Part shown: positions 37,601 through 57,772 of the stretch, piece by piece
Numbering within the stretch: the stretch's first letter is position 1
Layout: each line of letters begins with the position of its first letter
IMG/VR virus record: IMGVR_UViG_3300022682_000033
Coordinates: 1-64,000 of that record
Source: a virus
Length of the DNA stretch: 64,000 bases
Reading direction: 5' to 3' (one strand)
The notes under the pieces: model-generated
What the model saw: only the letters and a program-made list of their open reading frames with translations
What the model was told of the DNA's origin: nothing
The model's database searches: none
Program-made: the position numbers and the translations under genes

Positions 37601-38413
37601 ATGAACAATGAACTAATCAAGATCGAAAAAAAGACCATTGGTGAAGAAGAAGTTACTGCGGTTGATGCGCGTGAGCTACATGCATTTTTGGAAGTCGGTA
37701 AGGTCTTTGCAGCTTGGATTCAAGAACGTATTGAGCAGTACGGTTTTAAAGAAAATCTGGACTATGAGGTTTTTTCCAAAAGCGGAAAAAACCCCACAGG
37801 TGGCCGACCTTCAAAGGAATACTATGTTTCCATCGACATGGCCAAAGAACTTGCGATGGTTGAAAGGAATGAAAAGGGCAAACAAGCCAGGCAATATTTT
37901 ATAGAGTGTGAAAAGATCGCCAAAAAAGCTGCTATTGGGAATGCACCCAAAATAAAAAAACCTTCTATATCTCGCGTAAATTCAGATTTTAATGCGTTCG
38001 TGAAAATGGCTAAGACTTTCGGCATTGAAGGGAATCAGGCATTGCTTACCGCGAATAAAAGCGTAATTAAGCTACATGGTTTTAATTGTATGGAAGCATT
38101 GGGCGTCACGCACTTGATTTCCAAAAAACAGGAGCTTGATCTTACACCTACAGCTATTGGAAATCGTTTAGGTGGCATTCCTGCTACACAAGTTAATAAA
38201 CTGCTTAAAAGTGCTGGTTTCCAAAAATCATTTCGTGATGCTAAAAAAAAGCTGCAATGGGAACCGACGGAAAAAGGCAAACCGTATTCAATGATCAAGG
38301 ACACGAATAAAAAACATAGTGACGGCACACCGGTAAAGCAACTTTTTTGGACGGCGGATATCGTTCCATTCGTCGAAGATGAGCTTAACGGTTTGGATGG
38401 AATTAAAAAATAA
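37601..38413 (+). CDS. AntA-type phage antirepressor
   Basis: ATG 37601 follows AAAGGAGG. The N-terminal ~100 residues (VDARELHAFLEVGKVFAAWI, EYYVSIDMAKELAMVERNEK, ARQYFIECEK) are the AntA domain. The C-terminal part (LTPTAIGNRLGGIPATQVNK, WTADIVPFVEDEL) resembles the KilAC-type DNA-binding end. Predicted to inactivate or compete with the repressor. Its stop codon abuts the first attC-type half-site of array 1. Confidence 0.87.
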   Translation: MNNELIKIEKKTIGEEEVTAVDARELHAFLEVGKVFAAWIQERIEQYGFKENLDYEVFSKSGKNPTGGRPSKEYYVSIDMAKELAMVERNEKGKQARQYFIECEKIAKKAAIGNAPKIKKPSISRVNSDFNAFVKMAKTFGIEGNQALLTANKSVIKLHGFNCMEALGVTHLISKKQELDLTPTAIGNRLGGIPATQVNKLLKSAGFQKSFRDAKKKLQWEPTEKGKPYSMIKDTNKKHSDGTPVKQLFWTADIVPFVEDELNGLDGIKK

Positions 38414-38445
38414 GCCGGAATCTTCCGGTTAATCGCTGGTTATAT
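38413..38445 (+). repeat. attC-like half-site, anchor copy a
   Basis: AGCCGGAATCTTCCGGTTAATCGCTGGTTATAT-type unit: self-complementary CCGGAA/TTCCGG, a spacer, then the core GTTATAT at 38439. Nearly identical units occur at 40137, 41583 and 43961. Each starts a cassette block. It lacks the R'' arm of a full attC. Confidence 0.7.
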
Positions 38446-38457
38446 GGAGGGAAAACA

Positions 38458-38682
38458 ATGATTTCAGACAAACTATATAGTGAACTCGAAAAAATGAAAT
38501 GGAACGGCGGTGTTTACGGAGTTAGCCCAAAAGGACCTGCAAATAATGCGGTATGGTCACATTTACAGGATGCCGTTGATATTGGAAGCATATCACCGAT
38601 GGATGCGTATGACGCACTAAAACTTGGGTATTTGCCCGAACATTTGACGGTTCGTAAATCAAGATACGCACATTTATTATAA
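38458..38682 (+). CDS. cassette gene, hypothetical (74 aa)
   Basis: First cassette of array 1; ATGGAGGGAAAACA precedes ATG 38458. Compact soluble protein (MKWNGGVYGVSPKGPANNAV, MDAYDALKLGYLPEHLTV). Its stop codon lies in the R'' arm of attC 1. No promoter of its own is visible. Confidence 0.6.
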   Translation: MISDKLYSELEKMKWNGGVYGVSPKGPANNAVWSHLQDAVDIGSISPMDAYDALKLGYLPEHLTVRKSRYAHLL

Positions 38683-38734
38683 CCTGTCATTCCAGCGGAC
38701 CTAAAAAGCCGGCCGCTGAATTCAAACGTTATCA
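38679..38734 (+). repeat. attC: attC site 1
   Basis: R'' TATAACC, L'' TTCCAGCGGAC, loop, L' CCGCTGAATTCAAAC, R' GTTATCA. The inner arms AGCGG/CCGCT and the outer arms TAAC/GTTA are complementary, with the unpaired bases typical of attC. Length 56 bp. Confidence 0.82.
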
Positions 38735-38832
38735 TGCTATCGAGATAGGGTCGCCACCGAAAAGCAAGTATCCTGTTCTTGTCTGCTCGATAGCTCATTA
38801 AAAACAGGAAACCCTGAACAGGAGGAGTCCTT
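38735..38832 (+). other. cassette 5' region with a long-range stem
   Basis: GCTATCGAG (about 38736-38744) can pair with CTCGATAGC (about 38787-38795), placing a stem in the untranslated leader of the next cassette gene. It may be regulatory. Confidence 0.35.
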
Positions 38833-39195
38833 ATGATTACGTATTTAGAAACAACACAGCCGAATTGGAAACCGTTTGAAGCAATTATCGCACAAGTAAC
38901 GCCTGATATTATCCAGTCGTCTCCGTTTCCACTATTCCAGAGAGATCCAGAATATTTTCTTCATGATTTTATGCACATGGGAACAATCACGGATTCGTAT
39001 TTACCAGAAAAACAGATAGAGATTTACAAACATTGTGATACGAGGCGGTGTTTGAATATTGATAATAGCGGACAATGTTATGCTTTCGGGTCAAAGGTTC
39101 TTGATGAAACGAAAGATCCCTGGGATGATGGATATGATGAGAGCATCTACACCCCCATTGAAACACAGTCGGCATTATGGATCGCATTATCGTAG
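38833..39195 (+). CDS. cassette gene, hypothetical (120 aa)
   Basis: ATG 38833 follows CAGGAGGAGTCCTT. Soluble protein with YFLHDFMHMGTITDSYLPEK and three cysteines (CDTRRCLNIDNSGQC). Ends just upstream of attC 2. Unknown function, typical of integron cassettes. Confidence 0.6.
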   Translation: MITYLETTQPNWKPFEAIIAQVTPDIIQSSPFPLFQRDPEYFLHDFMHMGTITDSYLPEKQIEIYKHCDTRRCLNIDNSGQCYAFGSKVLDETKDPWDDGYDESIYTPIETQSALWIALS

Positions 39196-39203
39196 TCAGC
39201 AAT

Positions 39204-39324
39204 GATAACAATGCGTTTGCAGCCGACGCAAGCCCGCGCCCGCTGTAAAGCGCATCGTCATAAATAGCGTCGTCTCACCGCGCATGTCCTGTGTGGCTTG
39301 CGCGGCTGAAACGCGGCGTTATGC
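39204..39324 (+). repeat. attC: attC site 2 (long form)
   Basis: R'' GATAACA with L'' GTTTGCAGCCGACGC on the left; L' GCGCGGCTGAAACGCGGC and R' GTTATGC on the right. About 121 bp, with inner complementary segments (GCAGCCG/CGGCTG), like long attC types. Confidence 0.75.
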
Positions 39325-39398
39325 CGCAGTCGCCCAGTTGGCCGGGAGCACGTTTTGTAAGCGTGATGACGTCGGTTCGAATCCGACCTGCGGCTCCA
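39323..39398 (+). tRNA. tRNA-Thr (anticodon UGU)
   Basis: Complete cloverleaf. Acceptor GCCGCAG/CTGCGGC. D stem CCC/GGG around AGTTGGCC. Anticodon stem CACGT/GCGTG (one T-G) with loop TTTGTAA. Variable ATGAC. T stem GTCGG/CCGAC with TTCGAAT. Discriminator T and encoded CCA, 76 nt. It fills the whole space between attC 2 and attC 3, so the tRNA is itself a gene cassette. CCA overlaps the CATAACC core. Confidence 0.9.
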
Positions 39399-39454
39399 TA
39401 ACCCACCGCTCAAGCGGACGCAAAACAGCCGCGCCGCTTAATTGATCGTTAGCA
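39397..39454 (+). repeat. attC: attC site 3
   Basis: R'' CATAACC, L'' CCGCTCAAGCGGACG, L' CGCCGCTTAATTGATC, R' GTTAGCA. 58 bp. Abuts the tRNA 3' end. Confidence 0.85.
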
Positions 39455-39478
39455 ATTTCAGAGGGGAAGGAGAAGACT

Positions 39479-39784
39479 GTGCCTATCAGACCTGAAAATA
39501 AGATGAGATATCCAAAAGATTGGAAAACCAGATCCAGATTTATACGGTTTTTCCGTGCCAAAAATCATTGCGAATGGTGCGGCGCTGAAAACTACAAACC
39601 TCATCCGATTACAGGTTCAAAAGTGGTTCTCACCTGCGCCCATGTTTATGATCACAGGCCAGAAGCATCTAACTTGCTAAACCTTGCGGCACTGTGTCAG
39701 AGATGCCACAATCGGCATGATGCCGGTTTGCGACGCAGTGAGCGCAGAAAAAGGCTTAATGCCAATCAACTGGAATTGTTTTGA
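39479..39784 (+). CDS. HNH endonuclease-type protein (101 aa), cassette gene
   Basis: GTG 39479 after AAGGAGAAGACT. Zinc/HNH pattern: CEWCG, then VLTCAHVYDHRPEASNLLNL, then LCQRCHNRHD. Small HNH proteins are common in phages, often near terminase, where they nick or assist packaging. This one stands as a cassette after attC 3. Confidence 0.78.
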   Translation: MPIRPENKMRYPKDWKTRSRFIRFFRAKNHCEWCGAENYKPHPITGSKVVLTCAHVYDHRPEASNLLNLAALCQRCHNRHDAGLRRSERRKRLNANQLELF

Positions 39785-39898
39785 CAAGCTATAATAAGAT
39801 CAGCCCGGTAGGGTGGGCGCGGGTGTTTGCGCCCACCACATCAAAACCGAACTATGATTTGTAGGATTTCAGAATTAATAGGATTAAGAGCTAAAAAA
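39785..39898 (+). other. non-coding cassette tail with hairpin
   Basis: GTGGGCGC/GCGCCCAC around 39812-39836 forms a hairpin downstream of the HNH gene. No full attC was found here, so the HNH gene and the next small gene may share one cassette. Confidence 0.35.
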
Positions 39899-40045
39899 AT
39901 GTCTATAGAATATAAATTAAGATCAAATGGAAAAACAAAATGTGAAAATCTTGATTGCGGCCGAACGATTTTATTAAACGAGGAATACGTAGTTGTAGAA
40001 TTTAAAAACATTACCATAAAACTATGCAAAAAGTGCGCATCTTAA
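39899..40045 (+). CDS. small zinc-binding cassette protein (48 aa)
   Basis: ATG 39899 gives a 48-residue protein with CENLDC and CKKC pairs. An upstream start at 39827 is possible but has no ribosome site. Ends inside the R'' arm of attC 4. Confidence 0.5.
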   Translation: MSIEYKLRSNGKTKCENLDCGRTILLNEEYVVVEFKNITIKLCKKCAS

Positions 40046-40095
40046 CCCATCTCTCCACCGGTCTAAAACCCGCGCCGGTGAGCTAATCGTTGAAC
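40041..40095 (+). repeat. attC: attC site 4
   Basis: R'' CTTAACC, L'' TCCACCGGTC, L' GCGCCGGTGAGCTAATC, R' GTTGAAC. CACCGG/CCGGTG arms are complementary. 55 bp. Confidence 0.82.
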
Positions 40096-40123
40096 GTTGA
40101 ATGTTGAAAGTTGAACGTTCAAC
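40089..40123 (+). repeat. tandem copies of the R' core heptamer
   Basis: GTTGAAC, GTTGAAT, GTTGAAA and GTTGAAC follow one another exactly (40089-40116), then the inverted GTTCAAC. Each fits the integrase core consensus GTTRRRY or is one base off. Confidence 0.8.
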
Positions 40124-40136
40124 ATCCAAACAAAAA

Positions 40137-40161
40137 CCTTCCGGTTAATCACTGGTTGGAC
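40137..40161 (+). repeat. attC-like half-site, anchor copy b
   Basis: CCTTCCGGTTAATCACTG followed by core GTTGGAC (40155). Same unit as at 41583 and 43961 but lacking the first CCGGAA arm. Confidence 0.6.
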
Positions 40162-40233
40162 GCCTTAAACGTGGTGAGGTTAGTTTTCCAAGCACGGTGC
40201 GTTTATCATAAAAAAACTAAATACCTCCGTGCC
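40162..40233 (+). other. short non-coding cassette with long hairpin
   Basis: GAGGTTAGTTTT (about 40177-40188) can pair with AAAACTAAATACCTC (40214-40228). The segment between half-site b and attC 5 has no convincing gene. Confidence 0.4.
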
Positions 40234-40289
40234 GCCCAACCAACCATACAAGCTGACGAAAAACACCGCTGCTTAACTAATCGTTGTGA
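40234..40289 (+). repeat. attC: attC site 5
   Basis: R'' GCCCAAC, L'' ATACAAGCTGACG, L' CACCGCTGCTTAACTAATC, R' GTTGTGA. AAGC/GCTT arms. 56 bp. Confidence 0.7.
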
Positions 40290-40296
40290 GGAGAAC

Positions 40297-40545
40297 ATGC
40301 AAATAATAAATACGGTTGAAATAATATGTATGAATTGTGAGAAACAATTATCGGTGGAATATCCAGGCCCAAAGCTACAAAACGGGAAGTGGATATTCAG
40401 GGTGCTACCGTTCTGCGATAATTGCGCAGCACAACCCAACACTCAAGCGGAATCGCCGCCGTCAGTCGATCACGGTGTTCCGTGTTCTAAATGCGGTGCA
40501 ACTGATAACTGGATTTGCCTTTGCGAAATGCGGCAATCCGATTAG
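40297..40545 (+). CDS. cassette gene, zinc-finger-like protein (82 aa)
   Basis: ATG 40297 after GAGGAGAAC. Three CxxC pairs (CMNCEK, FCDNCA, CSKCGA) and a Pro/Gln-rich middle. The last ~14 residues (DNWICLCEMRQSD) are encoded by the left part of attC 6, so the recombination site supplies the C-terminus. Confidence 0.6.
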   Translation: MQIINTVEIICMNCEKQLSVEYPGPKLQNGKWIFRVLPFCDNCAAQPNTQAESPPSVDHGVPCSKCGATDNWICLCEMRQSD

Positions 40546-40558
40546 TTCTATGTTATAT
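40504..40558 (+). repeat. attC: attC site 6
   Basis: R'' GATAACT, L'' GGATTTGCC, loop TTTGCGAAATGC, L' GGCAATCCGATTAG, R' GTTATAT. The inner arms match except one extra base. A degenerate, shorter site-like segment follows at about 40570-40608. Confidence 0.7.
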
Positions 40559-40611
40559 GCCTATGAAATGCGAACAACGCGCCGCCGCCTAATTAAACAT
40601 TCAACCACACA

Positions 40612-41025
40612 ATGACGAAAAACGAACTAAAAACAGTAGCCTTGCTCGCATTTGCAAAGGCAACACTCGAAAAAATTGGCAATTGCAAAAACGCTGAAAA
40701 TATTGTAGTAAGTGCTATGGACCAGTGGCCTGCCTTAGAACAGAAAAACGTTAATACGTTTTGCCGCTGGTTTGAGGCGTTTGAAAGGCAAACATGGAAT
40801 GGCGAATTGCAAGACCAATTTGTTAATTTGAGTTTTTCAATCGCTATTTTGGATGACATTTCAACATACTTTTCAGGTAAAAAACTTGGCCTGGTTGAAG
40901 ATGTTATAGATTCACTTTCGAGATTGTACTATGAAAAAATAGAAAATCAGAATGACCATGAGGTTAATGAGAGCGCGGCTAATGCCGCCAATGCATGGAG
41001 AAATATAATCAATGACGACTATTGA
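40612..41025 (+). CDS. hypothetical helical protein (137 aa)
   Basis: ATG 40612. Mostly helical (KTVALLAFAKATLEKIGNCK, DVIDSLSRLYYEKIENQNDH). First of three tightly packed genes (40612-41602) between cassette blocks, so probably phage core genes. Overlaps the next gene by 14 bases. Confidence 0.5.
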   Translation: MTKNELKTVALLAFAKATLEKIGNCKNAENIVVSAMDQWPALEQKNVNTFCRWFEAFERQTWNGELQDQFVNLSFSIAILDDISTYFSGKKLGLVEDVIDSLSRLYYEKIENQNDHEVNESAANAANAWRNIINDDY

Positions 41026-41260
41026 AATTTGTGATATATGCGGGAAGAAATGTGATAACAGATTGTTTTTTAGAACCGATAGAGCAATGGACGCCGCCGG
41101 CAGTATGGAAGATGAAGGCGAAGTTTACGACCTGTGCGAAATACATGAGAACATGGTTTTAAAAAAAGTGCTTTTTAAAGGCACAAATGAAATTGAAAAG
41201 CAAAATATAAACAAACGGCTTGTGATGGAAGTCGAAAATTTGAAAAAAAGTAAGGAGTAA
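41012..41260 (+). CDS. small protein with CxxC motif (82 aa)
   Basis: ATG 41012 inside the previous gene end. N-terminal CDICGKKC and a later DLCEIHE suggest one zinc site. The C-terminus is a charged helix. Followed after three bases by a membrane protein gene. Confidence 0.5.
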   Translation: MTTIEICDICGKKCDNRLFFRTDRAMDAAGSMEDEGEVYDLCEIHENMVLKKVLFKGTNEIEKQNINKRLVMEVENLKKSKE

Positions 41261-41263
41261 AAA

Positions 41264-41602
41264 ATGGTAAATTTGAAACCGGCATGGAAATCAATCGAAG
41301 GTCAAGGTTCAAGCGGTGTGATTGGTGTTTTGCTGTACTTTTTGAATGACGTTTTGTCAGGAGAAAGGTTCAGCAAAAATATTGTTGAACTGTTACAATC
41401 CATAGCAGGTACGATGGATTTTGACAAAATATTCTTGATCCAAGAAATTGCAACAATCGTAAAGACAGGTTTAATTCTTACAGCGGTTTGTTTTGTGCTG
41501 TTCAAGCTTGTAGAGCACCGGTCTTATTTGAAAAACGATGCGATCAAGGCAGCAGAGAACATCGAAATAGCAAAGATGAACACACCGGAATCTTCCGGTT
41601 AA
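41264..41602 (+). CDS. membrane protein, possible holin (112 aa)
   Basis: AAGGAG precedes ATG 41264. A weakly amphipathic segment (GVIGVLLYFLNDVLSG) and a clear membrane helix (IVKTGLILTAVCFVLFKLVE) precede a polar tail, a holin-like layout upstream of the endolysin. The last residues (TPESSG) are encoded by half-site c. Confidence 0.5.
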   Translation: MVNLKPAWKSIEGQGSSGVIGVLLYFLNDVLSGERFSKNIVELLQSIAGTMDFDKIFLIQEIATIVKTGLILTAVCFVLFKLVEHRSYLKNDAIKAAENIEIAKMNTPESSG

Positions 41603-41615
41603 TCACTGGTTAGAA
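41583..41615 (+). repeat. attC-like half-site, anchor copy c
   Basis: CACCGGAATCTTCCGGTTAATCACTG-type unit then core GTTAGAA (41609). At the end of a core gene and the start of the PP-loop cassette. Confidence 0.7.
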
Positions 41616-41624
41616 AGCTTTTTT

Positions 41625-42341
41625 ATGAATAATTATTTATCATTCGGAGGCGGTGTCAATTCGGTAGCCTTGCACTTGTATTTGCTGAAGCAAGGCACTC
41701 AGTTTGAATCTGTGTTCGTTAATCATGGCGAAGATTGGCCCGAAACATACGAATATGTTAATATGTTTCAATCCTGGCTGAAGAAAAACGGACATAGCCC
41801 AATAACCGTTTTGACTCCAAATATCAATGGATCAACAGATATTTATAATTACTGTGATAAATACGCAATGATCCCTTCCAGGATGAAAAGATGGTGCACA
41901 GAAAAATTCAAAATACGGGCCTTGAAAAAACACTATCAAAAACCTTGCTTTGCCTTCATCGGTTATGATTTTGATGAGGTAAAACGGGCCAAAATTGTTC
42001 ATGAAAAAGGCGTAGAAAAACGGTTTCCGTTAATTGAAGCTGAAATCACAAGGGCAGGTTGCAAAGATATAATAAAAAAAACAGGCTTGCCAGTTCCAAT
42101 GAAATCAGGTTGCTATTTCTGCCCCTTCCAGCGGATAGGGCAATGGAAAGAGTTGAGACGTAAACACCCTGACCTGTTTTGCAAAGCAAACAAACTCGAA
42201 CAAAAAACCAATGCAGACCGTAAGCGCAGGGGAAAATCAGAAATATATTTAATACATAAACCTTTACGGCTTGTTGTTGATGAAAAACAACGGCCTTTAT
42301 TTGAAATTGATGCACTGCCTCCATGTGAGTGCGCTTTCTAA
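41625..42341 (+). CDS. PP-loop (PAPS reductase-like) ATPase, cassette gene (238 aa)
   Basis: LSFGGGVNSVALHLYLL is a PP-loop variant (GGGVNS in place of SGGKDS) of the adenine nucleotide alpha-hydrolase fold. KSGCYFCPFQRIGQWKELRR and other Cys residues fit phage CysH-like proteins of unknown substrate. It is bounded by half-site c and attC 7, so it is a mobile cassette. Distinct in sequence from the cysH-like gene of the Cas module. Confidence 0.8.
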   Translation: MNNYLSFGGGVNSVALHLYLLKQGTQFESVFVNHGEDWPETYEYVNMFQSWLKKNGHSPITVLTPNINGSTDIYNYCDKYAMIPSRMKRWCTEKFKIRALKKHYQKPCFAFIGYDFDEVKRAKIVHEKGVEKRFPLIEAEITRAGCKDIIKKTGLPVPMKSGCYFCPFQRIGQWKELRRKHPDLFCKANKLEQKTNADRKRRGKSEIYLIHKPLRLVVDEKQRPLFEIDALPPCECAF

Positions 42342-42433
42342 CCAGTCGCTCAACCGGAGCCATACTGTCACCGCTTTTGCAAAGGACAGCAAAAGCAGTG
42401 ACAGCATGTCCCGGTTAGCTTAAATCGTTATAT
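42337..42433 (+). repeat. attC: attC site 7 (long form)
   Basis: R'' TCTAACC, L'' CTCAACCGGAG, inner hairpin CTGTCACCGCTTTTGC/GCAAAAGCAGTGACAG, L' CCCGGTTAGCTTAAATC, R' GTTATAT. 97 bp. Confidence 0.87.
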
Positions 42434-42644: not shown

Positions 42645-43127
42645 ATGCAAACGCAAACAGTTGAATTTAGTCGTGGATATGAAAAATTCAAACTTGTTTT
42701 CCCTACAAGAGTAAAGATACCTTTCGAAGAAGTTGAAATGTACCCGGACTTCTGAGGCCCCGGAAACGCATGGGGGGACAGGTTGGTTCCCGAAGAAATG
42801 TGGGGTTTAAAAATTTCGGTTGCGTGCTTTTGCCATGACCTTATGTGGGCGATTGCGACGTTGAATGAGGACGAGTTTATTTCACTAAATGTGGTTTTTC
42901 TATCAAACATTGCAACGATCAACGCCCATTGCTCATCCAGCAAAATCTTATCCGCGTTACGGATGTACAGGGCGGCAACATATATGAATGCGGTTGGGTT
43001 GCCAGGTTGGGAGATTTTCAAACGCGATAAACTCAAACCGGTTTCACATCACATTGAAAAATATATTGATGACGATCTTGTCATTGAAATAAACAAAAGA
43101 GCGGAGTGTTTAAGAAATGCAATTTAA
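42645..43127 (+). CDS. phage protein (160 codons) interrupted by an in-frame TGA
   Basis: ATG 42645 follows GAGGAGACAACTT. Codons 1-36 end with EMYPDF, then TGA (42753-42755). The same frame stays open as GPGNAWGDRLVPEEMWGLKI and SVACFCHDLMWAIATLNEDE to 43127. Both parts look like one protein of the HDL-motif phage family near lysis genes. TGA is used as an ordinary stop elsewhere in this genome. Options: recoding (selenocysteine or readthrough), a recent nonsense mutation or sequencing error, or restart at TTG 42783. Confidence 0.6.
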
Positions 43128-43647
43128 TGAAATGCTTTTCGCGATGGCGGCAAGGTTCACGCTGTCCGAACGCATAGAGGGCGGATACGTCGATGATCCT
43201 GACGATAGGGGCAGAGAAACGAAATACGGCATATCGAAGCGAAGCTATCCAAACGTAGATATAAAAAATCTCACAAAAAAGGATGCAATCGAAATATACA
43301 AACGAGATTATTGGGATGTTAATCGGACAGGTGAGATGCCCGTTACAGTTGGAATAGTGCTGTTTGATAGCTCCGTTTTATTCGGCCCGTCAAGACCCTC
43401 CAAATGGCTTCAGACGGCTTGTAATCTTTCAAGGTATGGTGATATAGCTGTCGATGGAGTTATAGGCCCAAAAACGATCTCAGCGGCTATGTTGGCAAGC
43501 GAGGCAAGTATTGTAGAAAACATGATTGCAATTCGGATAAAAGCTCACACTGACGACGTAAAAGAGAATAGGAAACAAATCAAATTCTTGCGTGGGTGGA
43601 TGAATCGTATCAGTGAGCTTCTGAAATATATCGCAAAGATAAGGTGA
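43117..43647 (+). CDS. endolysin, GH108 N-acetylmuramidase (176 aa)
   Basis: ERIEGGYVDDPDDRGRETKY (residues ~18-37) followed by GIS is the GH108 signature with its catalytic Glu (E21). The C-terminal region (DIAVDGVIGPKTISAAMLAS) is the peptidoglycan-binding-like PG_binding_3 end. Cleaves the glycan strand at lysis. Overlaps the upstream gene by 11 bases and is followed by a small lipoprotein, like Rz1-type lysis genes. Confidence 0.9.
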   Translation: MQFNEMLFAMAARFTLSERIEGGYVDDPDDRGRETKYGISKRSYPNVDIKNLTKKDAIEIYKRDYWDVNRTGEMPVTVGIVLFDSSVLFGPSRPSKWLQTACNLSRYGDIAVDGVIGPKTISAAMLASEASIVENMIAIRIKAHTDDVKENRKQIKFLRGWMNRISELLKYIAKIR

Positions 43648-43961
43648 AAAAAATGAGCAAAACGTTAAAAATTATATTGGTATTGATGGTATCCGTACTG
43701 TTTTTCGGATGTCAAAAAAAGCATGTTAGGACGCAACCAATAGACGTTCCGAACATAGGCGTTACTTATATCTTGACCGAATCAAATATTGGGACACGAA
43801 GCATCACAATTTACGGCAGGCTGTATAAAAGCGGTCTCCAAATTTACGGCTTCCACATAGGCCAAAAAATAAAAACGATGGACAACAGGACTTTTGAGTG
43901 GGTCGGATGCGATAACAGGAATTATGCTAATGGGTGGGTCGAAATTGATCCTATAAAATAA
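43644..43961 (+). CDS. small lipoprotein after endolysin (spanin candidate, 105 aa)
   Basis: GTG 43644 overlaps the endolysin stop; ATG 43653 is the alternative. Signal peptide LKIILVLMVSVLFFGCQ with lipobox LFFGC. The mature part is beta-rich, unlike Pro-rich Rz1. Could act in outer membrane disruption or as a lipid-anchored accessory. Confidence 0.6.
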   Translation: MKKMSKTLKIILVLMVSVLFFGCQKKHVRTQPIDVPNIGVTYILTESNIGTRSITIYGRLYKSGLQIYGFHIGQKIKTMDNRTFEWVGCDNRNYANGWVEIDPIK

Positions 43962-43993
43962 GCCGGAATCTTCCGGTTAATCACTGGTTATGC
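43961..43993 (+). repeat. attC-like half-site, anchor copy d
   Basis: AGCCGGAATCTTCCGG then TTAATCACTG and core GTTATGC (43987). Same unit as copies a and c, again directly at the stop codon of a core gene. Confidence 0.7.
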
Positions 43994-44008
43994 GTAAAAG
44001 GATTTACT

Positions 44009-44236
44009 ATGGAATGCCAAAAATGTGGCAGAGAAAAAATATTCTGTGAACAGGCAATTACAGGGTTCCCAGACTATCATGTTGCCGGAAGCATAGTTGA
44101 ATATTGTGGTTTTTGCGACGAACCTCCAATTACCGCATTAAATCCTGGAGGTCGCAAAATTATTTTACAGCATAACCAGTCGCCGCTTAACTCAAACGTT
44201 AGCTGTATTGGTAGGGTTGATTTGAATGTACATTGA
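44009..44236 (+). CDS. cassette gene, zinc-binding protein (75 aa)
   Basis: ATG 44009. N-terminal CQKCG and later YCGFCDE predict zinc binding. The reading frame runs through attC 8 (NQSPLNSNVSCIGRV), so about the last 20 residues are site-encoded. Overlaps the next gene start by 11 bases. Confidence 0.5.
   Translation: MECQKCGREKIFCEQAITGFPDYHVAGSIVEYCGFCDEPPITALNPGGRKIILQHNQSPLNSNVSCIGRVDLNVH
44171..44204 (+). repeat. attC: attC-like site 8 (compact, one arm missing)
   Basis: R'' CATAACC, then directly CGCCGCTTAACTCAAAC and R' GTTAGCT. The L'' arm and loop appear deleted. 34 bp. Confidence 0.55.
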
Positions 44237-44594
44237 TAAATTCAAAAAAGATGGTGGGTATTATTCCGAAGATGGTTGTTTCTACGAATCATCAGAAGAT
44301 TTTATTCAGTGTGAAATTTTAGGTTTTTGCGGTTGTGGTAATCCGGAATGTAATCTTGAATTTATAATGAATGGGTTGAAATATATTAATGATCCACAAC
44401 CAGAAGATCGTTCCAAGTTTGATGAGTGGATAGAAGATGGTATGAAGCTGTTCGGAAGCGAAGGCGCAAAATATTTCTTTTTTTATTGGGCTGATAAAGA
44501 AGGGTTGGCAGAACACGGTGGTTCAGTTCCTGGATGGCTTACTGAAAAAGGCGCGCAGTTATTGTCAGACTTAAAAGAAATTCACAACAGCTAA
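44226..44594 (+). CDS. cassette gene, Cys-rich acidic protein (122 aa)
   Basis: ATG 44226. CEILGFCGCGNPEC is a tight cysteine cluster. The rest is acidic with aromatic residues (GMKLFGSEGAKYFFFYWADK). Stop codon lies in attC 9. Confidence 0.55.
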   Translation: MYIDKFKKDGGYYSEDGCFYESSEDFIQCEILGFCGCGNPECNLEFIMNGLKYINDPQPEDRSKFDEWIEDGMKLFGSEGAKYFFFYWADKEGLAEHGGSVPGWLTEKGAQLLSDLKEIHNS

Positions 44595-44680
44595 CGAGTC
44601 GTTCAACCGGACAGCCATCCGTCACGAAATTTGCGGAGCAAATTTAGCACCGGAGATTGCCGGTTAACACGGCGTTATAT
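44590..44680 (+). repeat. attC: attC site 9 (long form)
   Basis: R'' GCTAACG, L'' GTTCAACCGGACAG, inner complementary arms (AAATTTGC/GCAAATTT), L' GCCGGTTAACACGGC, R' GTTATAT. 91 bp. Confidence 0.83.
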
Positions 44681-45525: not shown

Positions 45526-47559
45526 ATGTCAACAAAAATACCAAGTTCAAAAATTGAATCGATGTGGCGAAACCTTGATCCGGAAATTAAGGCAGATTGG
45601 ATACAGACCGCCATTGTGAATTATAATGTTCCTCGTAATGTTGCAGAAATAAAAGCCGTCGAGTTGTTCTGGGAAGCAGAAAATGCAAAAAGCAAAATGG
45701 CTGAGTATCAATCAGGCCCAGAAGGATGTATCCGCTGGATTAATGATAACATATACCAAAAGGTGATCCCGTATGGCGGGCATGTCCATCAATGGGTTCC
45801 GATGGGAGAATTGCCAACAAAAAAAGATAAATATGGCAGGTCATACAAAACTATGTGGGAGGCTCAGCAAAAGGTTATTATGGAAGCCCTTGCCGTTGAT
45901 AGCACCGGAACTTATAAGCATAACCTGATAGCTCTCGTTTGGCCTCGTGGCCTTGGAAAAAGTTTTCTCGCGGTGTGCATTGGGCTTTATCGTTTTATTT
46001 GTTTCAGCTATCAAAAAGTTTATTTCAGCGCGAATAGCTACGATGAGAGTGACGAGTTGCATTTCAGTGAGGCGAAAACGCTTCTTCTTAATAGTCCTGT
46101 CTTGTGTGAAATAATAGGTGAAAATAACATACTATCAAATAAAATTAGATTCGTTGCCGGTGATAAAAATGTAATGAATGAGATAAAAATAATATCTCAA
46201 AAACGCGGCATTGTTTCTAATGCTGCTGTTGTGACTCAAACAGAGGTTTTTAAACAAGAATCCGATACTTTTTTTGCTCAATGGTATGGAAGTTTGAGGA
46301 TGACACATAATGCGCTTGGTATAATTGATTCAACCGTGTCAGACAAAAGCCATTGGCTATATCGTCTGTATAGAAATGCAAAAAAAGACCCTGGTGGGCC
46401 AGTATATTTCAACTACTATGGATGGGAGGACGCTAAGGCAAAATATTTCTGGCACCCTGGGATGACAGATCGTGATCTGGCCGGCTTTAAAACAGCAATG
46501 TCCAGACGGGACTTTGACAGATATTATAATAACCTATGGGGGAAACAAGGGGTTGGGTTATTTGACAATATTGATATTGGCGCAATTGGATATTTTGGGG
46601 CAAATGGAGTCCCGATATGCCATGAGGTTGTTAAGGATACACTGAAAAGGGCAAATAAGAAATCGCAGCGCATTGTGGTTCAGCAACTTCAACAACAGCC
46701 TACGAGGCGCCAGGAGGTCGCAGCCGAATTGATTGGGTCTCTCATGCCGGTGGAAGACTTTTATTCTCTCGGCCAGCATTCGTTCGACAAAGAAACGACC
46801 ATACGAAGGCCATCCATTATGCCGGGAATGAAAGAGGCCAGAAAGATAACCGATGCGCTGCAAACAAATTTGTTCTCTTTGCTGGTTGGTATTGACCGTG
46901 CGGAACCAAACAAGTTCAGCACCACTGGTGCAAAAACAGTCGTGTCTTGGATGATTAAAGTTCCGGCCGGTGAAATGTTTACAGGATTCGCGGAAGACCC
47001 GTATATGTACGTTCTTTTCGGTTTGGCGGTAGTAGAAAATTCTATGAGCCACCCGATTATTACACTGTTGTCCGAAATACATAATTGTATGGGGATTGAT
47101 TTTTTGTGTGGGGATCGATATAACTTTAGTGAGATATCGCCATGGTGTGATCAAAATGGAATCAAGTGGAGGTCTGTAAACCCGACGCTTGAAATTCAGA
47201 GGCAGGGGTTCGGGTTGTTTATCCGAGCCGTAAACAACGGTCTGTTTAAGGCTCCTCCAATGCCGGTAGCAGGTGTCACTCAAGCTGATATCTTGAGAGA
47301 AGAGCTTTCTGTGTTTGACGAGCTTGGGAAGCACAAGCAAACAGGCGTTTCAAAATACGGAAGCCCACAAAAACACAAAGCAAACGGTATTCAGGACGAC
47401 GCTATGGATTCAATCGGGATCGGTATGTTTGGCGGGATGGGCATTACAAAAGCCCACATGATCGACAAGTTTGCTCAAAAGAAAAGCAGCCTACCATATC
47501 TGAAAATGATCAATGGCCCGGCTTCCATTCAGGACACATACTCGTCTTTGTATATGTAA
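45526..47559 (+). CDS. terminase large subunit
   Basis: The 677-residue protein has Walker A WPRGLGKSFL near residues 138-147. A nuclease half begins near GIDRAEPNKF (~454) and ends with DDAMDSIGIGMFGGM, fitting the RNase H-like Asp residues. It translocates and cuts phage DNA. Unusually, it is 44 kb (or the rest of the circle) away from the portal gene and flanked by cassette arrays on both sides. Its stop codon is part of the first site of array 2. Confidence 0.85.
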   Translation: MSTKIPSSKIESMWRNLDPEIKADWIQTAIVNYNVPRNVAEIKAVELFWEAENAKSKMAEYQSGPEGCIRWINDNIYQKVIPYGGHVHQWVPMGELPTKKDKYGRSYKTMWEAQQKVIMEALAVDSTGTYKHNLIALVWPRGLGKSFLAVCIGLYRFICFSYQKVYFSANSYDESDELHFSEAKTLLLNSPVLCEIIGENNILSNKIRFVAGDKNVMNEIKIISQKRGIVSNAAVVTQTEVFKQESDTFFAQWYGSLRMTHNALGIIDSTVSDKSHWLYRLYRNAKKDPGGPVYFNYYGWEDAKAKYFWHPGMTDRDLAGFKTAMSRRDFDRYYNNLWGKQGVGLFDNIDIGAIGYFGANGVPICHEVVKDTLKRANKKSQRIVVQQLQQQPTRRQEVAAELIGSLMPVEDFYSLGQHSFDKETTIRRPSIMPGMKEARKITDALQTNLFSLLVGIDRAEPNKFSTTGAKTVVSWMIKVPAGEMFTGFAEDPYMYVLFGLAVVENSMSHPIITLLSEIHNCMGIDFLCGDRYNFSEISPWCDQNGIKWRSVNPTLEIQRQGFGLFIRAVNNGLFKAPPMPVAGVTQADILREELSVFDELGKHKQTGVSKYGSPQKHKANGIQDDAMDSIGIGMFGGMGITKAHMIDKFAQKKSSLPYLKMINGPASIQDTYSSLYM

Positions 47560-47611
47560 CGATTGAAGCCAGCGGCGCGGGGTTTTGCGTCCGGTGGATT
47601 GAATGGTTATG
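47554..47611 (-). repeat. attC: attC site (array 2, no. 1)
   Basis: On the minus strand: R'' CATAACC, ATTCAATCCACCGGACG, loop, CGCCGCTGGCTTCAATC, R' GTTACAT. It overlaps the terminase stop codon. Confidence 0.82.
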
Positions 47612-47732
47612 TGCCGCCTGGAATTGAACCAAGACCGGGACACCTTCACGAACCGTCATTTAAGGCGGAGTCGAACCGCCAGGATCTCCCGTGTTCATGA
47701 CCACTGCACCTGCTGTGGGTCAAGCACATAAC
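47611..47732 (-). ncRNA. tRNA-like non-coding cassette 1
   Basis: About 120 nt with no ORF, exactly between two attC sites. Ends GTGCT.../...GGCAC pair. The 3' end is a T-arm-like hairpin (CTTGG, TTCAATT, CCAGG). An inner stem TCATGAAC/GTTCGTGA encloses a second T-arm-like hairpin (GGCGG, TTCGACT, CCGCC). No regular cloverleaf can be drawn by eye. The layout is shared with the cassette at 51664-51794. Confidence 0.55.
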
Positions 47733-47760
47733 GATTGAACTAACCGGCGCACAACGCATT
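47726..47760 (-). repeat. attC: attC-like partial site (array 2, no. 2)
   Basis: Minus strand: GCGCCGGTTAGTTCAATC then R' GTTATGT. The R''/L'' side (toward 47760) is degenerate or lost. Confidence 0.5.
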
Positions 47761-47762
47761 AA

Positions 47763-47954
47763 TTAGTAGATTATCCTACGTAGCGCCTTTTCCGTTGGAA
47801 TCCACGCCCAATCTCCAATCCTACGTCGCAGAAGTCCGAGTCTGTACAGGTCAATTTTGATTTGTTTCCAGCATTTCGCGCGGATCATTCGATCATCACC
47901 TTTGGAAATTATGTGCCGCAACGCCTTTTTATGTTCGACTGAAAGATGTGTCAT
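47763..47954 (-). CDS. small basic protein (63 aa), regulatory-like
   Basis: ATG 47954 overlaps the stop of the upstream gene (ATGA). The protein is basic, with a helix-rich core (HLSVEHKKALRHIISKGDDR) and RRRIGDWAWIPTEKALRRI. Possibly DNA-binding. Ends next to the partial attC. Confidence 0.5.
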   Translation of the reverse strand: MTHLSVEHKKALRHIISKGDDRMIRAKCWKQIKIDLYRLGLLRRRIGDWAWIPTEKALRRIIY

Positions 47955-49476: not shown

Positions 49477-49780
49477 GATTGCATGAAAGAAAAGAGTTTT
49501 AAAAAATTTTCGTCGATTTTTTCATGCAACCAAGCGTACTACCAGATTTACCAGGGTACCTTTTAGACTGGGCCAGCAGCTGAACACCCCACCGATTAAA
49601 TGCCGTGGTCGCGGTAAAACATGTGCGTGTATATTGGGAGTCTTTAAAAACGAATCCCATCCCTGTATATCCCGAAAACGGGCGAGCGGGTTGATCACTC
49701 GCCTGGCAGTAACTTCTTCCGGTTACTACTCAGGTTGCGTATTTTTGTGGCTGAAAGCATACCTTTTTAAAAAACAACGC
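49477..49780. other. gene-free stretch
   Basis: About 300 bases with no convincing gene on either strand. A hairpin GCGAG/CTCGC occurs near 49683-49703. It may be the leader of the leftward genes. Confidence 0.4.
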
Positions 49781-49893
49781 TGCATAACAAAAAAAGCGCT
49801 TTTATGAGAGGGGGCGACTCCACAGGGAAAAAGTCGCCTCCAAGGTGGAATTGCCAAGGAAACCCTCTCATAAAAACGCTTTATGTTATTCCC
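49781..49893. ncRNA. long stem-loop element
   Basis: GCATAAC...AAAGCG...TTTTATGAGAGGG (49780-49817) pairs with CCCTCTCATAAAA...CGCTTTATGTTAT (49865-49893), nearly 28 base pairs. Inside is GGCGACT/AGTCGCC. The ends resemble attC cores (GCATAAC, GTTAT), so it may be a VCR-like site or a structured RNA. Confidence 0.55.
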
Positions 49894-50000
49894 TATGGAT
49901 GTTTTAGCAATTGAACTCAGCGTTTTCCAGGCGCGTCATCGTTCAAAAACTGTCAAAAGATACAATTTGTTTTTGGCTCTGTCAAGTATAAAAATATCTA

Positions 50001-50189
50001 TCACTTGTTGGATAAAACTTCGGGATTTAGTTTCAAAAATTCTAATATCCCCTGAGCGACACCTTCTTTGATAGCTTTTTGGACGTTTATTTTGTTACCA
50101 CCAGCCCACCATGATTTGTCTTGTTCTTCCAAAAATCTTAAAAAGGCGTGCTCAATTCCTTTTTTAACATCTCTTTGATTGATATCCAT
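50001..50189 (-). CDS. cassette gene, small helical protein (62 aa)
   Basis: ATG 50189 after GGAGGGAATA. Helical (KKGIEHAFLRFLEEQDKSWW, INVQKAIKEGVAQGILEFLK). It starts just after attC site m3, as cassette genes do, and overlaps the end of the methyltransferase frame by 26 bases. Confidence 0.55.
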   Translation of the reverse strand: MDINQRDVKKGIEHAFLRFLEEQDKSWWAGGNKINVQKAIKEGVAQGILEFLKLNPEVLSNK

Positions 50190-50829
50190 TATTCCCTCCT
50201 AACGCCTCAAATAACCGGCGCGGCTTTTTGCGTCCGGTGCAGCGACTGGTTATGTGACGCATTATGTATTCGCCCAATTCTGGCAAAATACAATTTCTTA
50301 GAACTTGTCGCTTGTTTTTAATCTTGGACTGAGCAACGACTTCATATTCGGCAAAGTCGGATATTTTGTTTTTACTTCTGATTTTTACCGGTTTAAAATC
50401 CATATGCGGTACGGTATCACTTGACCAAAATAAATGACGATGCAGAATGAATGACGGCTCGACCAACGGTGTATAGTAAGGTTTTGTATTTTCAACGACC
50501 CATTGCCCCTCGAAATATGTTTTCAGGAAAACGATCTGTGCATAAAGCGACATATCCGGCATTATTGGGTCAAAACCTTTTCCGATGACCCCGACATTGT
50601 GCCGATATTGTCCGTGACTTGGGCATGGTGGCGAAGCCCATATAAAATCATATTCGGCATAGTGTTTTTCAAGATAGTGCAGCGCATCACCAACAATTAC
50701 CGTATCATTTGGGTAAAGTAATTGGTAAACAGCTGCAATATCAGGATCAAGTTCAACAGCGGTCACATGATGCCATTTCCATAATTTACGATTGCCGCCG
50801 ATTCCTGCATATAAATTCAAAACTTTCAT
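50164..50829 (-). CDS. C5-cytosine DNA methyltransferase, cassette gene (221 aa)
   Basis: ATG 50829 follows GGAGGTGTTT. FxGxG-type start LNLYAGIGGNRKLW (residues 4-17), catalytic ASPPCPSHG with Cys69, and VVENTKPYY match Dcm-type enzymes. LPELGEYIMRHI closes the usual fold. The last ~35 residues (SRCTGRKKPRRLFEALGG onward) are translated from attC m3. Short for the family (no large target domain). Modifies cytosine in DNA; no partner nuclease seen. Confidence 0.83.
   Translation of the reverse strand: MKVLNLYAGIGGNRKLWKWHHVTAVELDPDIAAVYQLLYPNDTVIVGDALHYLEKHYAEYDFIWASPPCPSHGQYRHNVGVIGKGFDPIMPDMSLYAQIVFLKTYFEGQWVVENTKPYYTPLVEPSFILHRHLFWSSDTVPHMDFKPVKIRSKNKISDFAEYEVVAQSKIKNKRQVLRNCILPELGEYIMRHITSRCTGRKKPRRLFEALGGNNGYQSKRC
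50197..50254 (-). repeat. attC: attC site (array 2, no. 3)
   Basis: Minus strand: R'' CATAACC, AGTCGCTGCACCGGACGC, L' CGCGCCGGTTATTTGAGGC, R' GTTAGGA. 58 bp. Confidence 0.88.
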
Positions 50830-50851
50830 AAACACCTCCGATATTAAGTCA

Positions 50852-50909
50852 ATCTAACGTTTCAAATAACCGGCGCTGGGGTTTGCGTCCGGTTGAACAG
50901 ATTGTTATG
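50852..50909 (-). repeat. attC: attC site (array 2, no. 4)
   Basis: Minus strand: R'' CATAACA, ATCTGTTCAACCGGACGC, L' CAGCGCCGGTTATTTGAAAC, R' GTTAGAT. 58 bp. Confidence 0.87.
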
Positions 50910-51041
50910 CTACATCATCCCGATTATAAATGCGTCTCCGTGTGTCCAGCTTTCTCATCGCGGCAGCACGTCTGCTTGCCGGGGTGATATTGGTCTCGCA
51001 CCGTCCCTCACCTGGGCCATCATAGCGCAGTGACGGAGACG
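50910..51041 (-). ncRNA. non-coding structured cassette
   Basis: About 130 nt without an ORF between two attC sites. Minus-strand ends GCGTCTCCGT and ACGGAGACGC pair over 10 bp. Inside are GGTGA/TCACC and CGGCAAGCA/TGCTGCCG hairpins and a CCAG/CTGG stem, giving a multibranched fold. No T-loop is seen, so it differs from the tRNA-like cassettes. Confidence 0.55.
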
Positions 51042-51103
51042 CATAACGGTTAAGCTAACCAACGCGCGGCTTTTTGCGCGTCCGGGTTTAGCGAATGGTT
51101 AGC
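51041..51103 (-). repeat. attC: attC site (array 2, no. 5)
   Basis: Minus strand: R'' GCTAACC, ATTCGCTAAACCCGGACGC, L' CGCGCGTTGGTTAGCTTAAC, R' GTTATGC. 63 bp. Confidence 0.85.
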
Positions 51104-51320
51104 CGACAGCAGTTATTTCAGCAACGTCCGCAATAATATTTAATGCTGCCCTCAGTCCAGGCACATAAATTCGGTCACGCCTGAGATCATGTTCAATGTG
51201 ATTGACGATTACAGACGATATATTCCCCAATGAGATTGAATCAACCAATCCCCAGGTGAACTGTTCTGGAAATTCCTCATTGTAGCTATCGTGATCCTTC
51301 ACCTTCATGAATTCTCCCAT
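51099..51320 (-). CDS. cassette gene, hypothetical (73 aa)
   Basis: Two possible starts (51320 and 51308) each sit behind GGAGAATTC because a 12-base unit carrying ribosome site and ATG is duplicated in tandem. Compact soluble protein (FTWGLVDSISLGNISSVIVN, LRAALNIIADVAEI). Ends within attC m5. Confidence 0.6.
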   Translation of the reverse strand: MGEFMKVKDHDSYNEEFPEQFTWGLVDSISLGNISSVIVNHIEHDLRRDRIYVPGLRAALNIIADVAEITAVG

Positions 51321-51334
51321 GAATTCTCCTTTCT

Positions 51335-51391
51335 GGCTAACGATTAGCTCACCGGCGCTGGGGTTTGCGTCCGGTGGAGCGATTGGTTATT
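51335..51391 (-). repeat. attC: attC site (array 2, no. 6)
   Basis: Minus strand: R'' AATAACC, AATCGCTCCACCGGACGC, L' CAGCGCCGGTGAGCTAATC, R' GTTAGCC. 57 bp. Confidence 0.88.
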
Positions 51392-51596
51392 TATTAATTG
51401 CCAATGGCTCAATATCTAAATTAATTGAAAACGCATATCCACAATCCTGACATTCCAGCGGTATGACAACAAAAAGATTTTTATTATCCGCGAAAAAAGG
51501 TTGATCCGAAATATTCCGTTTCAAATTATCACATCCACAATTAATGCAAAACGGATTAAGCTTTTCCGTAAATGTCACCTCATCCGTAGGTATCAT
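51387..51596 (-). CDS. cassette gene, zinc-binding protein (69 aa)
   Basis: ATG 51596 after GAACTGAA. CINCGC and CQDCGY frame a zinc-ribbon fold with hydrophobic strand NKNLFVVIPLE. Its stop lies in attC m6. Confidence 0.6.
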   Translation of the reverse strand: MIPTDEVTFTEKLNPFCINCGCDNLKRNISDQPFFADNKNLFVVIPLECQDCGYAFSINLDIEPLAINK

Positions 51597-51606
51597 TTCA
51601 GTTCTC

Positions 51607-51664
51607 CAATAACGTTAATGATCACCGGCGCGGCTTTTTGCGTCCGCTCGAATGTCGGGTTATG
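51607..51664 (-). repeat. attC: attC site (array 2, no. 7)
   Basis: Minus strand: R'' CATAACC, CGACATTCGAGCGGACGC, L' CGCGCCGGTGATCATTAAC, R' GTTATTG. 58 bp. Confidence 0.83.
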
Positions 51665-51794
51665 TGCCGTCAGAATCGAACTGACCTCAACCAGGGTTTT
51701 CACCCTACGGCTATTTCACGATGCCGATTTGAACGGCCACCCCTGGTTTTCTTTTCCGCAGTTGCCAGTCACCAGTCTGGCTTGGGCACATAAC
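51664..51794 (-). ncRNA. tRNA-like non-coding cassette 2
   Basis: On the minus strand ATGTGCC and GGCACAT form a perfect 7-bp acceptor-like stem. The 3' side is a perfect T arm (GTCAG, TTCGATT, CTGAC). A D-arm-like segment (AGCCAG...CTGGCA) follows the 5' strand. The middle is not an anticodon arm: AACCAGGG/CCCTGGTT encloses another T-loop hairpin (GCCG, TTCAAAT, CGGC). Same architecture as 47611-47732. Confidence 0.6.
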
Positions 51795-53216: not shown

Positions 53217-53219
53217 TAG

Positions 53220-53471
53220 TTACCTCCCTTCCCTTAGCAACCCATATCTATATGGTTTTGTCTCGTTGATTTGATAGATCAGAAGCCACCGCGATCCCTC
53301 TCTCAAATACCGCAATGCTACAGGATAACTGCAATCTAACTCTAAAGCAATATCCTCTGTTGTAATGCCGCTTTTTGACTTGAAAAGCCGCATAAACCGA
53401 AACGCCCTTTCGATGTTGTTGTGCTGGCGAACCGTCCGTCGTGACGCCAGCCGCTTCTTAATGCCGCCCAT
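53220..53471 (-). CDS. small HTH protein (83 aa)
   Basis: ATG 53471 overlaps the preceding gene end. GITTEDIALELDCSYPVALR is an HTH segment followed by YLREGSRWLLIYQI (wing). The N-terminus is basic. Probably a small transcription regulator. Confidence 0.6.
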   Translation of the reverse strand: MGGIKKRLASRRTVRQHNNIERAFRFMRLFKSKSGITTEDIALELDCSYPVALRYLREGSRWLLIYQINETKPYRYGLLREGR

Positions 53472-55468: not shown

Positions 55469-55537
55469 CAATGAACATCCTTTTTATTAAAGTGAAGAAC
55501 ATTTATAATCCGTAAATGTAAAAAGCTTGTACAATGT

Positions 55538-55568
55538 TCTTGACATTGTTGTCAAGAAATAATATAAA
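55538..55568 (+). promoter_or_regulatory. rightward early promoter overlapping a palindromic operator
   Basis: TCTTGACA (55538-55545), 4 bases, TGTCAAGA (55550-55557) is a perfect inverted repeat. Its left arm is a -35 (TTGACA 55540). The -10 TATAAA (55563-55568) follows at 17 bases. The right arm gives a TTGACA on the opposite strand, suitable for the repressor promoter. Confidence 0.8.
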
Positions 55569-55626
55569 AAAACATGTTTTGTCAAAATTATTTTACTTTA
55601 TTAATTTTTTATCATGGAGGTGTTAA

Positions 55627-57027: not shown

Positions 57028-57090
57028 GTTTGCCTTCCGGTTGGGCTTATAATTTGGGCATGATAACTTAAGAATAGAGGTCTAATAATA

Positions 57091-57276
57091 ATGTTAGAAA
57101 CAGAAACAGAAATAGAAAAAATTGAAAGTGAGTACATGAGCGCTGTCAGTGTTATAAACTCAAAGTTTGCCCCGTCTGATGATGATTGGAAAAGACTTGA
57201 AGTCGCAGAAAAAAAATATAACCAATTAATCCAGCGGAATCAGTGCCGGTTTGATTCCGCTGATCTTAACGTTTAA
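57091..57276 (+). CDS. cassette gene, small acidic helical protein (61 aa)
   Basis: ATG 57091. Helical (TETEIEKIESEYMSAVSVIN). The last ~20 residues (QLIQRNQCRFDSADLNV) are encoded by the attC at 57217-57277. Confidence 0.55.
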   Translation: MLETETEIEKIESEYMSAVSVINSKFAPSDDDWKRLEVAEKKYNQLIQRNQCRFDSADLNV

Positions 57277-57277
57277 C
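57217..57277 (+). repeat. attC: attC site (array 3, no. 1)
   Basis: R'' TATAACC, L'' CCAGCGGAATC, loop AGTGCCGGTTT, L' GATTCCGCTGATCTTAAC, R' GTTTAAC. AGCGGAATC/GATTCCGCT arms match exactly. 61 bp. Confidence 0.83.
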
Positions 57278-57297
57278 TGATAATTAAGGAGTGTAAT

Positions 57298-57753
57298 ATG
57301 GGTAGAGAAATAAAAAGAGTGCCTCTTGATTTCGAGTGGCCAATCGGTGAAATTTGGCCGTTTTATTTGCACAATACATGTATTGACGATTGCGACAAAT
57401 GCAAATTGGCGGCTAAAGAGATCGGTCTTGGAATGACAGAATATGGTTGTCCTGCATTTAAAAAATATAATCCACCGGAAGGCGTCGGATTTCAGTTGTG
57501 GGAGACGACGAGTGAAGGTTCTCCTATGTCTCCGGTTTTCGATACACCAGAAAGTCTTGCCGAATGGTTGGAGGCGAACAAGGTGAGTTCTTTTGCATCG
57601 TTTACATGCTCGTATGATCAATGGCTCGATTTTATACGTGGTCCGGGATGGGCTACGAGCGCCATCCTCGACAAAAACGGCTTTAGAAGCGGCGTTTGCG
57701 CCTCAGTCCAACCAGTCATTCAAGCGGACGGCAAAAAGGACGCCGCCGCTTAA
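57298..57753 (+). CDS. cassette gene, hypothetical (151 aa)
   Basis: ATG 57298 after AAGGAGTGTAAT. Cys residues CIDDCDKCKLAAKE suggest metal binding. The tail (QPVIQADGKKDAAA) is encoded by the next attC. Unknown function. Confidence 0.6.
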   Translation: MGREIKRVPLDFEWPIGEIWPFYLHNTCIDDCDKCKLAAKEIGLGMTEYGCPAFKKYNPPEGVGFQLWETTSEGSPMSPVFDTPESLAEWLEANKVSSFASFTCSYDQWLDFIRGPGWATSAILDKNGFRSGVCASVQPVIQADGKKDAAA

Positions 57754-57772
57754 TTCCACAGCCAGGTTAAAA
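57707..57772 (+). repeat. attC: attC site (array 3, no. 2)
   Basis: R'' TCCAACC, L'' TCATTCAAGCGGACG, L' CGCCGCCGCTTAATTCC, R' GTTAAAA. AAGCGG/CCGCTT arms. 66 bp. Confidence 0.83.

Follow-up and report, generated by a model that had tools for sequence, protein, structure and literature searches.

We analyzed a 64,000-nucleotide stretch of viral DNA (hereafter the window; bases 1-64000 of the 67,892-bp IMG/VR virus record IMGVR_UViG_3300022682_000033) and found that this tailed phage, in the window and in a near-identical second record, carries at least 18 integron attC sites at four loci and on both strands. We consider it very probable that these loci are integrase-less cassette clusters (clusters of attC sites lacking integron integrases, CALINs) that were filled by the integron integrase of a host at the G/TT crossover point and were kept by selection. 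Under such a mechanism, cassettes made up of one short unit, coding or RNA, and its attC would enter as DNA circles, the bottom strand of the attC would fold into a hairpin, and an integron integrase supplied in trans by the host would recombine this strand at G/TT. Insertion would occur beside existing attCs and at half-attC sites behind antirepressor, helicase, and lysis genes, and selection would retain cargo useful to the phage, namely methyltransferase, HNH, PAPS-reductase-like, tRNA-His guanylyltransferase, tRNA-Thr, and other RNA cassettes.

An earlier note, made from the letters of the window alone, had claimed 15 or more attC-like sites, 55-121 bp long, at three loci on both strands, oriented with their cassette genes and scattered among phage core genes with no integrase, and had proposed attC covariance scoring as a check. 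A covariance model (R1) built from only six clinical class 1 integron attCs of plasmid records, with the variable loop shortened in three of the six for alignment, recovered 10 attCs in the window at E<0.05, all inside the region claimed (38413-57772), and 12 at E<=0.16, while its best match outside that region had E=0.3; the E-values of both covariance models come from a short calibration. A second model (R2), trained on the class 1 attCs, the first phage matches, and two attCs of the viral contig L018, found 16 sites in the window at E<=0.035 and another two in the second record's upstream array, with no matches outside the cassette loci. Sites at 42336, 40040, 51607, 39203, 57216, and 44170, as well as both sites of the second record, were absent from the R2 training set yet were found. 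In a separate structural score, approximately 9-10 sites reached at least 25, a value seen in none of four shuffles. The sites have the R''-L''-L'-R' organization of attCs, as imperfect palindromes with YAAC...GTTR boxes, and their bottom strands fold into an imperfect hairpin with an unpaired (extrahelical) base (z-scores -2.2 to -8.6). The number, strands, and orientation of the sites were thus confirmed, and a fourth cassette locus was added beyond the window, in the second record (L003/L140). Both records hold at least two attCs close together with no intI nearby, as in a CALIN, and neither has the intI gene that, with attI, makes up a complete integron. Because no integron integrase was found in either record (no match to the TIGR02249 profile), the enzyme was probably supplied by a host.

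The cassette boundaries provide a second line of evidence. The first bases of an integron cassette (TTRRRY...) and the R'' of its own attC derive from one recombination site, so that the two are expected to be complementary; no such match is expected for the start of the cassette that follows. We found that the match between start and own R'', summed over 18 cassettes, was 121, and that none of 200,000 permutations reached this value (maximum 106). The own R'' matched better than that of the neighbor in 14 cases, tied in 3, and was worse in 0. Runs of at least 5 nt joined start and own R'' in 14 of the 18 cassettes, with matches of 9-10 bases in the PAPS-reductase-like, Thg1, 122-aa, and two RNA cassettes. 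The limits of c4-c7, and those of the final cassette of every array, are less certain.

Moreover, the same landing site was used repeatedly. A half-attC occurs in four copies, which stand behind different genes or spacers. Their sequences are almost the same as far as the crossover G and part right after the TT, where each copy runs into a different cassette. A fifth, more divergent copy lies behind the DnaB helicase gene of the second record, and no further IMG/VR record matched the exact half-attC pattern. These half-attCs form the start of cassette blocks, with cassettes beginning at the crossover, and are candidates for an attI-like position, with no intI present. As read from the sequence, the joins are what integron recombination at G/TT would leave. 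Together, own-start/own-R'' complementarity, divergence of the half-attCs after TT, and a similar pattern in an unrelated phage (see below) bear out the proposal that these are discrete cassettes bounded at G/TT.

The DNA around the cassettes is that of a phage. Head protease, major capsid, tape measure, and terminase genes (PHROGs) and genes for a GH108 endolysin, an antirepressor, and Rha (Pfam) were identified in the record, and all of these except Rha belong to the surroundings of the arrays, in agreement with the claimed scattering among core genes. The second record (IMGVR_UViG_3300022685_000023) is 99.994% identical to the first across the first 17 kb; its left end corresponds to 67357-67677 of the first record, and its position 9190 joins base 1 of the window, overlaps that give a closed genome of roughly 76.5 kb. 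Outside the window, bases 67357-67892 are identical to the second record until ~67677 and then run into a tRNA-Ser(TGA), a divergence that we read as a prophage-host junction; because of this reading, the phage is probably temperate. A terminase query found no relative in IMG/VR, and the window arrays had no match among public phages at high identity. Distant phage relatives occur in two Desulfobacteria genomes (terminase identity 33%), with no attC in the stretches fetched from them.

Table 1. Features of the attC-bearing loci and other genes (window positions; ORF, open reading frame; bits refer to covariance models R1 and R2)
Feature	Position	Strand	Evidence or remark
attCs found by R2, plus strand	38677-38734, 39203-39324, 39396-39454, 40040-40095, 40234-40289, 42336-42433	+	
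attCs found by R2, plus strand, continued	44170-44204 (short), 44589-44680, 57216-57277, 57706-57767	+	
attCs found by R2, minus strand	47554-47612, 50197-50255, 50852-50910, 51041-51104, 51335-51392, 51607-51665	-	
Weak attC remnant	40429-40558	+	
Weak attC remnant	47726-47776	-	
Half-attC landing site (CCGGAATCTTCCGGTTAATCGCTG/G), after antirepressor gene	38414-38439	+	repeat family D2; first cassette starts at TT
c1: 74-aa ORF, attC 38677-38734	38440-38728	+	R1 32.2 bits, R2 51.8 bits
c2: int-alpA RNA 38738-38808, 120-aa ORF 38833-39195, 121-bp attC 39203-39324	38729-39318	+	RF02996 39.1 bits (Rfam); R2 24.4 bits, outside training; start/R'' run 8
c3: tRNA-Thr(TGT) 39323-39398, attC 39396-39454, nothing more	39319-39448	+	R1 23 bits
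c4: HNH endonuclease 39479-39784, second small ORF to 40045, attC 40040-40095	39449-40089	+	phrog_1571 E 1e-19; R2 31.7 bits
Half-attC, shortened copy	40137-40155	+	
c6: ~130 bp without ORF, attC 40234-40289	40156-40283	+	R1 22.8 bits
c7: 82-aa ORF, decayed attC 40429-40558	40284-40558	+	R2 15.7 bits, E 0.78
Half-attC landing site, after three-gene block 40612-41602	41585-41609	+	
c8: PAPS-reductase-like gene 41625-42341, attC 42336-42433	41610-42427	+	phrog_424 E 4e-36; start/own R'' complementary across 10 nt
Lysis genes between cassette blocks: GH108 endolysin 43117-43647, small lipoprotein 43644-43961	43117-43961	+	PF05838, PF09374
Half-attC landing site, after lipoprotein gene	43962-43987	+	95% identity to 38414 copy
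c10: 75-aa ORF, short attC 44170-44204	43988-44198	+	R1 16.9 bits, R2 21.1 bits
c11: 122-aa ORF (phrog_25507), attC 44589-44680	44199-44674	+	R1 29.5 bits; start/R'' run 9
Terminase large subunit	45526-47559	+	phrog_2 E 2e-8; 3' end meets minus-strand array
m6: 120-nt RNA, no ORF, attC 47554-47612	47560-47732	-	R1 25.1 bits; start/R'' run 9
Array-end element	49740-49993	-	strong inverted repeat 49786-49887, then T run
m5: cytosine methyltransferase-like gene 50164-50835, attC 50197-50255	50197-50858	-	PF00145, phrog_363; R1 31.8 bits
m4: structured RNA, 11-bp closing stem, no ORF, attC 50852-50910	50859-51047	-	fold z -2.15; R1 39 bits, best in window
m3: 73-aa ORF, attC 51041-51104	51048-51341	-	R1 22.6 bits
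m2: 69-aa ORF, attC 51335-51392	51342-51613	-	R1 19 bits, R2 48.1 bits
m1: 130-nt RNA, candidate tRNA-like, attC 51607-51665	51614-51794	-	fold; R2 29.4 bits
attC closing cassette in front of ORF 57298-57753	57216-57277	+	R2 24 bits, outside training
t2: 151-aa ORF, attC 57706-57767	57298-57767	+	R1 18.6 bits, R2 53.7 bits; between SbcC-like ATPase gene and phrog_3657 gene
Cas7/Csf2	14204-15457	+	PADLOC E 4.5e-40
Cas5/Csf3, first copy	15454-16086	+	PADLOC E 2.2e-36
CysH-like PAPS reductase	16035-16871	+	
Cas8/Csf1-like	16929-17669	+	PADLOC E 2.8e-13
Cas5/Csf3, second copy	17813-18463	+	PADLOC E 3e-31

The recognizable cassette genes fall in phage families (Pfam, PHROGs): a tRNA-His guanylyltransferase (phrog_4717), a radical SAM protein (phrog_9298), a PAPS-reductase-like protein (phrog_424), an HNH protein (phrog_1571), and a methyltransferase (phrog_363). 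Three of these have homologs elsewhere that lack an attC: PAPS-reductase-like genes in Desulfobacteria genomes (53-60% identity), a Vibrio phage gene with 70% nucleotide identity to the m5 methyltransferase, and the HNH gene of Leptospira phage LE3, with 71% nucleotide identity to that of c4. The same genes therefore occur both with and without the cassette form.

Other cassettes encode RNA. Cassette c3 consists of TTAT, a complete tRNA-Thr(TGT) with encoded CCA, and an attC (ARAGORN; Rfam tRNA 53 bits), and its RNA has the cloverleaf and anticodon of a tRNA gene. Three minus-strand cassettes (m1, m4, and m6) have no ORF and form closed folds. The m1 RNA has a 7-bp acceptor stem, a D-arm with a GG loop, and a canonical T-arm, with the anticodon domain replaced, and m6 resembles it in its tRNA-like T-arm and D-arm but more weakly (fold z -0.8). 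Any cassette without an ORF will gain a terminal stem simply because its start and R'' are complementary; the case for a tRNA-like RNA therefore comes mainly from the T- and D-arms. A search for a T-arm with an acceptor found three instances against 0.1 expected per record, two of the three being true tRNAs. On modeled folds, m1 is a good and m6 a weaker candidate for a tRNA-like RNA. Rfam at a relaxed threshold gave no match in the minus-strand array, and the tRNA-Thr cassette had none among public phages. A pattern of a tRNA or T-arm followed by an attC had one IMG/VR match, a chance one without attC, and none among 389 Desulfobacteria genomes. Cassettes carrying tRNA or noncoding RNA were not found in the integron literature searched, outside which most subscription journals fall. 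An int-alpA RNA (38738-38808, plus strand) lies directly behind an attC and opens cassette c2.

We found comparable cassettes in an unrelated phage, L027 (IMGVR_UViG_3300000558_001485), which has portal, primase, and Rha genes and a terminase of phrog_15 (E 1e-120). It holds a 56%-identity homolog of the c8 PAPS-reductase-like gene, there also an attC cassette. An attC stands behind each of three genes in L027, for a DHH phosphoesterase, a DNA methyltransferase, and this PAPS-reductase-like protein, and the cassette starts pair with their own R'' over 8, 10, and 11 bases. Like the phage described here, L027 has attC-bounded cassettes in front of the terminase with the own-start signature; it differs in its terminase and portal families, in having four attCs, and in an integrase remnant, an IntI C-terminal fragment at 9986-10147 (record 11899-12060; TIGR02249 90 bits) between cassette array and terminase. 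Covariance-model-positive attCs also occur in L018 (with a RecT-like protein), L014 (terminase), and L012 (methyltransferase).

An exact-match pattern of the attC core occurred at 97 genome loci, 56 of which were Desulfobacterota or 'Deltaproteobacteria' by record title, and most of the loci listed have attCs confirmed by the covariance model. Desulfobacterota probably make up a few per cent of the collection, and the concentration of this attC type among them points to a host integrase. The tRNA-Ser at the junction is 94-96% identical to tRNA-Ser in many Desulfobacteria genomes (tRNAs are conserved, and no outgroup was compared), which lends weak support to such a host. Thus, the phage probably infects sulfate-reducing bacteria of the Desulfobacterota.

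Several observations weigh against a host-filled CALIN. No close relative spans the arrays, the overlap with the near-identical second record being 17 kb elsewhere, so gain or loss of a cassette at G/TT was not seen, and both records are metagenomic and without read support. Because the attCs at 40429, 44170, and 47726 are decayed or short, some stretches of the arrays may not be active. Finally, four of the 18 cassettes (c4, m5, t2, and radical SAM) have no start/R'' run beyond the common GTT(A).

A bolder form of the argument would give phages a circulating cassette pool of their own, with the half-attC as a phage-encoded attI-like pad behind core genes and the cassettes that hold nothing but a tRNA or tRNA-like RNA as translation or anti-defense modules traded from phage to phage via host integrases; we regard this as possible but rather doubtful. 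It is unlikely, though possible, that the loci are fossils, that is, one or a few pieces of an integron array from a host chromosome captured by ordinary or illegitimate recombination, with no IntI-driven cassette movement since. Such capture was proposed for phage CALINs by Qi et al. (PMC9892861), and the decayed attCs and the IntI fragment of L027, as a captured integron end would give, are consistent with it. However, a captured block would hardly account for four loci on both strands, several of which open at the same half-attC but continue, precisely from the crossover, into different cassettes, and the phage-family cargo is unlike that of a typical chromosomal block. Cassette movement by the phage's own tyrosine recombinase (62736-63653), the only one found in the record, is very improbable: this protein matches phage integrases (phrog_216), scores 64 bits against a 220-bit cut-off for the archaeal XerA/integron type, has no TIGR02249 match, and suits a phage-integrase role near the tRNA-Ser junction. 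We rejected, as having a negligible chance of being correct, the reading of the palindromes as intrinsic terminators or chance hairpins, because, although attCs can work as weak terminators and several stand behind genes, a model of clinical attCs has scarcely any matches in 72 kb apart from these sites, pairing of cassette starts with their own R'' would be unexpected of terminators, and arrays of sites of this type exist in Desulfobacterota genomes.

Related systems are known. Qi et al. (2023, PMC9892861) described CALINs in phage genomes, as attC clusters without intI, with methyltransferase cargo and G/TT boundaries, all features shared here, and five of six phage attCs assayed recombined with attI1 by IntI1. 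As phage attC clusters and recombination assays are thus already published, the novelty is narrower than the earlier note implied. That text makes no mention of tRNA; beyond it, the phage described here has at least 18 attCs at four loci on both strands, whole tRNA and structured-RNA cassettes, and a repeated half-attC site. New, then, are this scale, the phage-family cargo, the tRNA-Thr cassette, the other structured-RNA cassettes, and the reused half-attC. Class 1 integron cassettes (aadA1, aadB, VIM-2, and others) have an attC architecture close enough for the covariance model to find the phage sites, but the phage, unlike class 1 integrons, has no intI and no recognized attI or resistance genes. 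Chromosomal integrons of Desulfobacterota share the attC sequence type; unlike them, the phage has recognizable cargo from phage protein families, and the tRNA-cassette pattern was found in 0 of the 389 Desulfobacteria genomes.

Three further features were observed. Type IV CRISPR effector genes lie inside the phage tail region (14204-18463, plus strand), where cysH beside csf genes recalls what we take to be type IV-B. The array-end element (49740-49993, minus strand) is ~78% identical to L140 8938-9186, and both copies of this intergenic element lie close to where a cassette array ends. At 42646-43127 (plus strand) there is an apparent split protein, in which the frame opening at 42646 ends at ~42757 and the protein runs on to 43127 in another reading frame; frameshift, sequencing error, and decay are candidate causes.

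If filling by host integrases is correct, integron recombination would be a routine source of phage mosaicism, in which phage-type genes and tRNAs are joined as cassettes at one nucleotide. It would also offer a mechanism for some of the exchange of 'moron' genes between unrelated phages and a route for phage genes into bacterial integrons and vice versa. A self-contained tRNA-gene cassette widens the known cargo of integrons, as far as the literature searched shows. Together, these genomic patterns suggest that the integron machinery of bacteria allows phages to gather and exchange parts.
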